Below, piece by piece: positions 16,926-52,774 of a stretch of 64,000 nucleotides of DNA (its first letter is position 1; each line of letters starts with the position of its first letter). The notes beneath the pieces are model-generated. The model made no database searches, had not been told where the DNA came from, and was given only the letters and a program-made list of their open reading frames with translations. The translations under genes and the position numbers were made by a program. Source of the DNA: Rickettsiales bacterium (GTDB lineage: Bacteria; Pseudomonadota; Alphaproteobacteria; Rickettsiales; UBA998). The stretch is taken from contig JANQNR010000003.1 of NCBI GenBank assembly GCA_028279475.1, positions 124,001-188,000 on the forward strand. The letters are read 5' to 3'.

Positions 16926-17044
16926 TTTGCTGAGAACGAGTCGTTCGAGGCGAGTAGCGCGGAGTGTACGTGCAGGTACATGAGCACTGCGAGTCCGATG
17001 AAGGACGACGTTATCAGTGAAATGATGGAATACGTGATGTAGGG
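16926..17044. other. Non-coding spacer with small palindromes between pdhB and the exported protein gene
   Basis: Contains GAACGA-G-TCGTTC and GTAC-GTGCAG-GTAC, both small inverted repeats. The text looks like a dispersed intergenic element rather than leader sequence, but only one copy occurs in the window. Any reading frame through it encodes a non-natural, Arg/His-rich peptide. Confidence 0.4.
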
Positions 17045-48875: not shown

Positions 48876-49541
48876 TTATGCCGCCGCTTCAATCATCGGG
48901 TCGAATGGTGCTTCAAACAGGGTCGTCGTCGAGAAATTCCACTTATCCCGATCGACCCGTAATACTTTCTGCGGATGGCCGGGCTGCCCTACCGGCGCAA
49001 TCAGTCGGCCATCATCACTGAGTTGCTCCAACAAGGCACTTGGAATCGCCTGCAACGCCGCCGTCACGATAATCCGGTCATAAGGCGCCGCATCCGGCCA
49101 GCCTTTATGCCCATCGCCACCCAACGTAGCAATCGTGCTATACTGCAACTGCTCAAGCCGCTGCCTCGCCTCCTCTCGCAATTCCGGATAGTATTCCATC
49201 GTAAATACCCGGCGTGCCAATTGCGCCAGAATCGCCGCCTGATAGCCGGAACCGGTACCAATCTCCAACACGATGGAGCGCTCCTGCACATCCAGCGCTT
49301 CCAACATCCGCGCCACCAGCTCCGGCGCGTTGATCGTCTGCCCGGCAGAAATCGGCAACGCCGTGTTTTCGTAGGCACGATCCGCAAACATTCTCGGCAC
49401 AAACACTTCACGCGGCACCAACTCTACGGCGCTGAGCAGCCGATTATCACGAATACCGGCCGTACGTAACGCCATCACCAGTTGAATCTTGGCACTGGCC
49501 AGATCGTCATCAGGCGGGTTGAACAGGTCGGGTTGAGGCAT
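48876..49541 (-). CDS. pcm: Protein-L-isoaspartate O-methyltransferase
   Basis: Repairs isoaspartyl residues in aged proteins using SAM. Signatures are the pre-motif QTINAPELVARMLEAL, SAM motif VLEIGTGSGYQAAILAQL, and PYDRIIVTAAL. ATG 49541 gives 221 residues; an in-frame GTG at 49574 is possible. A second paralogue lies beyond priA. The 195-bp structured segment is about 100 bases upstream of this start. Confidence 0.92.
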   Translation of the reverse strand: MPQPDLFNPPDDDLASAKIQLVMALRTAGIRDNRLLSAVELVPREVFVPRMFADRAYENTALPISAGQTINAPELVARMLEALDVQERSIVLEIGTGSGYQAAILAQLARRVFTMEYYPELREEARQRLEQLQYSTIATLGGDGHKGWPDAAPYDRIIVTAALQAIPSALLEQLSDDGRLIAPVGQPGHPQKVLRVDRDKWNFSTTTLFEAPFDPMIEAAA

Positions 49542-49643
49542 GGGTTCTGTGTTCTCTTTCTTCGCCCATACCACAGGTCACGTTGCAACGCCAGCATTCT
49601 TGGGGTTTATCATCATACAAAGCTTCTTTTTACAGAGCACATG

Positions 49644-49838
49644 CAAAATGGATTTCTGTGGAGCAGATACGAGGAGTGTCTGCCCGGAAAACCGGAATGT
49701 ATGGCAAAGCACTTGCCACCGAGGGTGGCAGTAGTGTTTGCATATTTAATGCACAGCACCCCACAGGTGGGTGCTGTGGGATACATGAGGATTTGAGGAC
49801 AGACACGACAAAGTAGGTGCCCTCAGAAATCCATTTTG
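49644..49838 (-). ncRNA. Candidate structured RNA or MITE between priA and pcm
   Basis: Nested pairings in order: CAAAATGGATTTCTG (49644-49658) with CAGAAATCCATTTTG (49824-49838), 15 perfect pairs; GTGTCTG (49676-49682) with CAGACAC (49800-49806); CCGG-AAAA-CCGG at 49684-49695; ATGTAT (49697-49702) with ATACAT (49781-49786); inside that, hairpin A (GCAAA...TGCCACC-GAG-GGTGGCA...TTTGC, 49704-49741) and hairpin B (CACAGCACCC-loop-GGGTGCTGTG, 49752-49778). The element starts 3 bases after the priA stop. No plausible coding frame. Strand is given as that of priA and pcm but is not proven. Confidence 0.5.
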
Positions 49839-52081: not shown

Positions 52082-52774
52082 ATGATGAATACAACTGAAA
52101 ATCCGCATTCTGAGCAACTTTCTTCCATGCTGAAAGGGCAGTTGGCTACCAACGGCATCCATGATTCCATGGTGCTGGAAGCAATAAAAGCAGTAGATCG
52201 CGCACGCTTTGTTCCGGAATCTCTCAGTCATGTTGCCTATGTTGACGACGACATCCCACTCTGCGCCAACCGTTACCTGCTCGAACCGCTGATATTCGCT
52301 AAGATGCTCGAATATGCCGAGATTGAATCGCATCACCGTGTGCTGGATGTGGGCGCTGGCCTTGGCTATAGTAGTTGTGTTATCGCACACATGGCCGCGC
52401 AGGTTATCGCCGTTGAGGAAAGCGCAGAACTAGTGGCAGCAACCCGTAAAAAACTGGCCATGGCACATATTCAGCATGTGGATCTGGTAACAGCCCCCAT
52501 GGATGCGGGATGCGTCGCGCACCAGCCTTATGACCGCATCATTATCGAAGGAGCTGTGGCGGAGATATCACAAACACTGGAAGAACAACTGGCAGAAGGT
52601 GGCCGTATTGTTGCCATTCGTGCCAGGGGTCGCATGTTCGCCACGCAAAAAACGCTGGCAGACATTATTATCGGTACAAAACATGGGAATCGGGTGACTT
52701 ATGTTGAAAAGGATCGGGTCAGCGCCTATCCTTTGCGCAGAGTGATGGATGAGGATCATTTTTTCAGCTTCTGA
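52082..52774 (+). CDS. Second PIMT-family methyltransferase
   Basis: The SAM motif VLDVGAGLGYSSCVIAHMA and the YDRIIIEGAV strand match protein-L-isoaspartate methyltransferases, but the QTI-type pre-motif that contacts isoaspartate is not obvious. Genes of this type commonly precede tolC in Alphaproteobacteria, as here. Two ATGs in tandem (52082, 52085) are possible starts. True substrate uncertain. Confidence 0.8.
   Translation: MMNTTENPHSEQLSSMLKGQLATNGIHDSMVLEAIKAVDRARFVPESLSHVAYVDDDIPLCANRYLLEPLIFAKMLEYAEIESHHRVLDVGAGLGYSSCVIAHMAAQVIAVEESAELVAATRKKLAMAHIQHVDLVTAPMDAGCVAHQPYDRIIIEGAVAEISQTLEEQLAEGGRIVAIRARGRMFATQKTLADIIIGTKHGNRVTYVEKDRVSAYPLRRVMDEDHFFSF

Follow-up and report, generated by a model that had tools for sequence, protein, structure and literature searches.

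The window analyzed here, a stretch of 64,000 nt from the genome of a Rickettsiales bacterium, contains between priA and pcm a strongly folded segment of 195 nt, and the question is whether this segment acts as an RNA of the two genes or is a piece of mobile DNA. An earlier note, made from the letters of the window alone, had proposed a leader RNA, an RNase III target, or a small RNA, and alternatively a MITE whose ends form the closing stem. Our analysis supports the mobile-repeat reading and does not support a leader RNA or small RNA. The segment is very probably a nested, non-autonomous mobile DNA repeat, in which an outer hairpin related to RPE1 carries a 76-nt core at its tip.

The identities of both priA and pcm were confirmed, and the two genes are co-directional on the minus strand. 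The element is given here on the plus strand, which is the orientation of its RPE1-like reading frame and antisense to both genes. Most of the architecture described in the earlier note was borne out: the perfect 15-pair closing stem, the stacked helices GTGTCTG/CAGACAC and ATGTAT/ATACAT, and two long internal hairpins are present, and the segment starts 3 nt past the priA stop codon. The local CCGG hairpin is only an alternative conformation to the pairing that the minimum free energy (MFE) structure makes there with the opposite arm, and the distance to pcm, stated as about 100 nt, ranges from about 70 to 100 nt with the pcm start codon chosen. In the comparison with shuffled sequences that the note had proposed, the RNA MFE of positions 49644 to 49838 was -94.2 kcal/mol against a shuffled mean of -53.9 kcal/mol (z = -9.1), and none of 200 shuffles folded as low. 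The minus strand of the same segment, folded as DNA, gave a z of -9.5. Because both strands fold about equally extremely, the segment is a DNA palindrome and not a strand-specific structure, and the fold alone cannot assign it to a one-strand RNA. As a separate observation, genes of the protein-L-isoaspartate methyltransferase family stand on either side of priA (48876-49574, minus strand, and 52082-52774, plus strand), and the second of them scores below the curated cutoff.

When the segment was searched against the host genome (1.98 Mb in 19 contigs), as the earlier note had suggested, copies were found, one of them near full length (L002, 89% identity over 197 nt). Two loci, L003 and L004, match only query positions 60 to 153, that is, the core; L005/L006 and L011/L017 match only the two outer parts; and many further places match only query positions of about 106 to 139. 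Of these, L005 and L011 each form an entire palindrome that folds as one hairpin and has a short loop at its apex. The outer layer is an imperfect hairpin of about 120 to 140 nt with a conserved tip: once the core is subtracted, the window copy measures 119 nt (195 - 76), compared with 140 nt for L005 and 142 nt for L011. The window itself holds a second, core-less element, which is 78% identical to L004; its matches to the two sides of L004 cover 51 nt at 88% and 45 nt at 82%. Dispersed copies thus comprise L002, L005, L011, L026, a second subfamily (L003, L004, and the window element at 16928), and the tip matches L219 to L221, an inventory that combines searches with targeted stretches and is a lower bound. 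The copy at L026 (1430-1540, contig C17) is diverged, lies immediately upstream of a radA-like start, and differs in its center; CCTCCCGGCT/AGCCGGGAGG form its closing stem. The window copy and L002 have their end type in common; comparison of ends with arms among the window copy, L002, L005, and L011 gives a mosaic pattern, at few sites only.

Table 1. Features of the nested element and of the second element in the window
Feature	Position	Strand	Evidence
Whole nested element, 195 nt	49644..49838	+	Fold z -9.1; repeat copy L002, 89% over 197 nt
Closing stem, left arm (element end), 15 pairs	49644..49658	+	Pairs within copy, differs between copies
Outer hairpin, left arm, RPE1-like, ending with tip motif AACCGgAaTGTA	49659..49702	+	R1 match
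Twin-hairpin core, 76 nt, replacing apex loop	49703..49778	+	95-97% identical in 4 copies
Core hairpin A, GGCAAAGCACTTGCCACC..GGTGGCAGTAGTGTTTGC	49703..49741	+	Predicted folds
Core hairpin B, GCACAGCACCCCACAGGTGGGTGCTGTG	49751..49778	+	Also in other twin-hairpin repeats (L007-L016)
Outer hairpin, right arm, RPE1-like, beginning in tip motif (A)TACATGAGGATTTGAG	49779..49823	+	R1 match; invariant tip columns in alignments A1 and A3
Closing stem, right arm, 15 pairs	49824..49838	+	Pairs within copy, differs between copies
Core-less second element, L003/L004 subfamily, between pdhB and next gene	16928..17020	+	R1 16.6 bits, E = 0.086

RPE1 is known as a Rickettsia-specific coding palindrome whose mechanism of mobility is unknown. 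Rickettsia palindromic elements (RPEs) are stem-loops of 105 to 146 bp that lie between and inside Rickettsia genes and for which target duplication is unknown (PMC2229807); RPE1, Rickettsia palindromic element 1, is represented by the NCBIfam model TIGR01045 (Ogata et al. 2000, as summarized in PMC2229807). For the arms we built the covariance model R1, which uses 14 copies taken from the host genome, genomes G054 and G084, and record JAJTIB010000198.1. It aligns to positions 49659 to 49823 of the window with 82.9 bits and treats the 76-nt core as an insert, the window copy being itself part of the model. At an E value of 0.01 or less, R1 has matches in at least 110 of the 344 genomes of the order, in 47 of 134 genera. 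Copies from the genomes that we call Rickettsia-like, a label that rests partly on RPE1 content, match TIGR01045 when translated (93.6 and 70.4 bits, with a cutoff of 30), while a copy from G003, in the host's own family, and one from G054 score below that cutoff (15.8 and 15.3 bits). TIGR01045 had no match in L011, in L100, or in the reading frame of the window copy after removal of the core. Since the window copy does not reach the cutoff, we name the element RPE1-related rather than RPE1.

An independent test is provided by a second model, R2, built from 19 Rickettsia-like copies only. This model finds L156 (E = 1.2e-17), L031 (E = 2.9e-17), and the sister copies in the host genome (L011, E = 1.1e-11; L005, 1e-10; L002, 1e-9). 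The window copy alone, with its insert present, scores 8.2 bits over the tip, a low value owing to the insert and to divergence; its tie to RPE1 would run through the sister copies L002, L005, and L011. The elements found by R2 and the Rickettsia-like copies have in common the tip CCGnAgyGTA..TACrTGAGGAT, and the Rickettsia-like copies have the end TAGACyTCTTGCATAAC in common with L005 and L011. We take the outer layer to be a member of an RPE1-related superfamily of hairpin elements that is spread through the order; for the sisters this membership is established by sequence, structure, and covariation, and for the window copy it would follow from its sisters. Like RPE1, the element is a long imperfect hairpin of similar length (the 119 nt lie within the range of about 105 to 146 bp for RPE1-type elements free of inserts), with the same tip motif, coding potential on the same side and in the same frame, and dispersed copies for which no target-site duplication is established. 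Unlike RPE1, it is intergenic and antisense to both neighbors, carries the 76-nt twin-hairpin core at its apex, has other ends, resides in a host that does not belong to the genus from which RPE1 takes its name, and by itself falls below the RPE1 cutoffs. In-frame insertion within genes, which RPE1 also shows, is seen in relatives: in the alr-like gene described below and, outside the Rickettsia-like family, in a queG-like gene that holds an RPE1-like element in frame (L161, 1501-1592, genome G262). In the host genome, L219, L220, and L221 (contigs C11, C3, and C10) make up a third subfamily, which is shorter and has GCAGTGTACGTTGAGGTACATGAGCAGC as its tip; R2 assigns it E values of 2e-4 to 3e-3.

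Pairing in the arms is conserved through paired change. Over 79 copies, 93.3% of the pair cells hold standard pairs, 22 of 26 pairs have changed on both sides, and double changes were observed in 429 cells, compared with 119 in shuffles and at most 75 with slid pairing; fitting the alignment to the structure biases these statistics in its favor, but the margin is large. The compensatory changes that the earlier note had made a test of the RNA reading do exist, but they belong to the dispersed repeat and not to the priA-pcm locus. In the closing stem this goes further: the mean pairing score of its flanks is 16.1 within a copy, against 7.2 between copies from different genomes, which mostly do not pair. 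In genome G064, two modules (L196, 101-192, and L201, 101-192) are 96.7% identical, yet their closing stems are unrelated (48% and 52%), each self-complementary and pairing with its own partner. In G003, G032, and G054, the ends are common to the copies, as in an ordinary MITE burst. Pairing may be maintained by selection for a folded single-stranded intermediate, by arm-to-arm copying, or by both.

How such an element arrives can be seen at one site, an alr-like gene of a Rickettsia-like genus, in which the element is present in two genomes and absent from most relatives. The filled allele reads TTTAA[TAGACC...GGTCTA]CAGAATCC, the element standing in the first brackets, and the empty allele reads TTTAA-CA-CAGAATCC. 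The filled gene is longer by a net 144 nt (48 codons), with no target duplication. Comparison of the two alleles indicates that the closing stem arrived with the element there. Insertion into a preexisting host hairpin was ruled out at this single examined empty site, as the empty alr-like gene has no palindrome; it may apply to the copies in G064 and G338. The outer element would likewise have inserted whole, with its closing stem, between priA and pcm; in none of the relatives examined is priA followed by pcm, and therefore there is no empty site for exactly this locus. No target-site duplication of 2 to 29 bp is consistent among 39 Rickettsia-like copies, and none is evident at the window copy. 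The MITE proposal is thus essentially right: diverged copies recur in the host genome and in the order, and the element comes with its closing stem at the relatives' empty site, but there are two nested elements instead of one and no target-site duplication was found.

Candidates for a mobilizing enzyme were sought in the host genome. We found no DDE_Tnp_1 domain, no Y1_Tnp domain (PF01797, present in the family member G005), and no intact autonomous insertion sequence (IS) with matching ends, a terminal-repeat search yielding two element copies and single matches; an exact match to the right-arm pattern was not found in the viral collection. Because the host genome lacks DDE_Tnp_1 and Y1 transposases, its copies are probably relics. 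In G054, the terminal repeat GACCTCTGCATAAC of the elements also lies upstream of a damaged IS5-like transposase gene (transpos_IS5_4, 3e-19, below the model's full-length cutoff). This remnant, one damaged copy in another family, is a hint to the mobilizing enzyme. Movement was probably through an enzyme acting in trans, perhaps IS5-like and since lost from the host genome, and a non-autonomous element that was mobilized in trans and is now stranded is a reasonable reading of what we infer from these data.

The core consists of two hairpins and, between them, a short A/T-rich spacer; the TGTAT/ATACA stem of the tip closes the block. It is 95 to 97% identical among the window copy, L002, L003, and L004, whereas the arms of the window copy are 51 to 58% identical to those of L003 and L004. 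Sister elements that lack it (L005, L011, and 16928-17020 of the window) are 72 to 91% identical to the core-bearing elements of their own subfamily. A core that is near-identical while the arms have diverged, together with core-less elements that have arms of the same type, indicates that this block has a separate history. The core appears to have passed from one element subfamily to another at the same tip, or to have been exchanged there: a separate 76-nt twin-hairpin repeat would have replaced the apex loop and spread between at least two outer subfamilies, the observed pattern being compatible with insertion or with recombination at the conserved tip. Alternatively, the core is ancestral to the host's element and was lost from L005, L011, and 16928-17020, in which case there is one element and not two. 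That the core occupies the same position in all four copies, that it is closed by the same pairs, TGTAY/RTACA, as the element tip, and that the window copy and L002 have a common end type would agree with such a history, which we nevertheless consider unlikely, because the disparity between core and arms makes the core much younger than the subfamily split, or exchanged since, because the relatives listed and inspected have a short loop, and because hairpin B also occurs in other twin-hairpin repeats. With its two GC-rich hairpins and spacer of about 10 nt inside a closing stem, and with hairpin B in many copies in the host genome, the core, which we regard as a separate repeat, resembles REP/BIME twin-hairpin repeats, from which it differs in that the host genome has no Y1 (RAYT-type) transposase and in that this copy sits inside the tip of another element. 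The host genome is rich in palindromic repeats. Loci L007 to L016 (contigs C7, C4, C18, C2, and C9; e.g., L013, 1490-1580) are twin-hairpin repeats in a CTCTCCC/GGGAGAG stem that have hairpin B in common with the core and adjoin further repeats of the type CCCCTCACCCAATCG..CTGCGCTCGGTCTC, and G003 has tandem arrays of the hairpin ACACAGCATCCCACAGGTGGATGCTGTG with a period of about 38 nt (L033 and L044), which resemble hairpin B.

Two other explanations concern the element as a whole. A cis-acting structured RNA or small RNA (leader, attenuator, or RNase III target) belonging to the priA-pcm transcript, with the fold under selection, would account for the very stable fold, the strong covariation, and the position between co-directional genes. 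Apart from covariation, what marks such an RNA, namely a fixed gene neighbor and the use of one strand, was not found: the opposite strand folds equally, the copies are dispersed over unrelated loci, the gene neighborhood is not conserved in relatives, and the apex is largely a separate repeat. An Rfam search of the segment gave only weak chance matches, none above the gathering score, and neither a promoter-like site nor a minus-strand terminator was found within it. The RNA proposal of the earlier note is therefore left with no positive support, and we hold it to be improbable. In a transcript reading through from priA to pcm, the very strong hairpin could conceivably invite RNase III cutting or slow the polymerase, a possible but unsupported effect. 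The element at this locus is most likely a tolerated relic, and if it affects the read-through mRNA at all, this would be a by-product of its folding. Slightly less credible still is an IS5-derived MITE of the host lineage whose likeness to RPE1 is a convergence of palindromes. The conserved terminal repeats and the amplification in G054, with a matching terminal repeat adjoining the IS5-like pseudo-transposase, speak for it, as does the general resemblance to bacterial MITEs with IS5-type ends, which are small and palindromic and have terminal inverted repeats. However, the window copy has different ends, neither an IS5-family transposase nor a target-site duplication was found in the host (nor a duplication among the 39 copies and at the one empty site), and the closing stems vary between copies yet stay paired. 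Moreover, a model built from Rickettsia-like copies alone finds the elements at E values of 1e-9 to 1e-17, and it is the tip and end sequences, not pairing alone, that are held in common; the R2 alignments speak against a tip similarity that would vanish once paired columns are disregarded.

We favor the nested mobile repeat, and three of its aspects are new: an RPE1-related family that is recognizable across the order, a second repeat lodged in the tip, and closing stems that are copy specific yet paired. A more tentative proposal, which we regard as possible but doubtful, is that an RPE1-type element is a palindrome built in concentric layers (closing stem, arms, and apex core), each of which is exchanged as a matched pair; the tip would serve as a landing site for another repeat, and closing stems would be replaced by new paired ones. 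If this is true, layered exchange implies movement or repair through a folded hairpin, with one arm copied from the other. Because the closing stems are specific to each copy and still paired, such a hairpin-templated mechanism is testable. The nested core marks the hairpin tip as a place where further palindromes can lodge. Relatives of RPE1 in 47 genera, some of them far from Rickettsia and some having conserved ends next to the remnant of an IS5-like gene, offer a route to the origin of RPE1 and to its enzyme.
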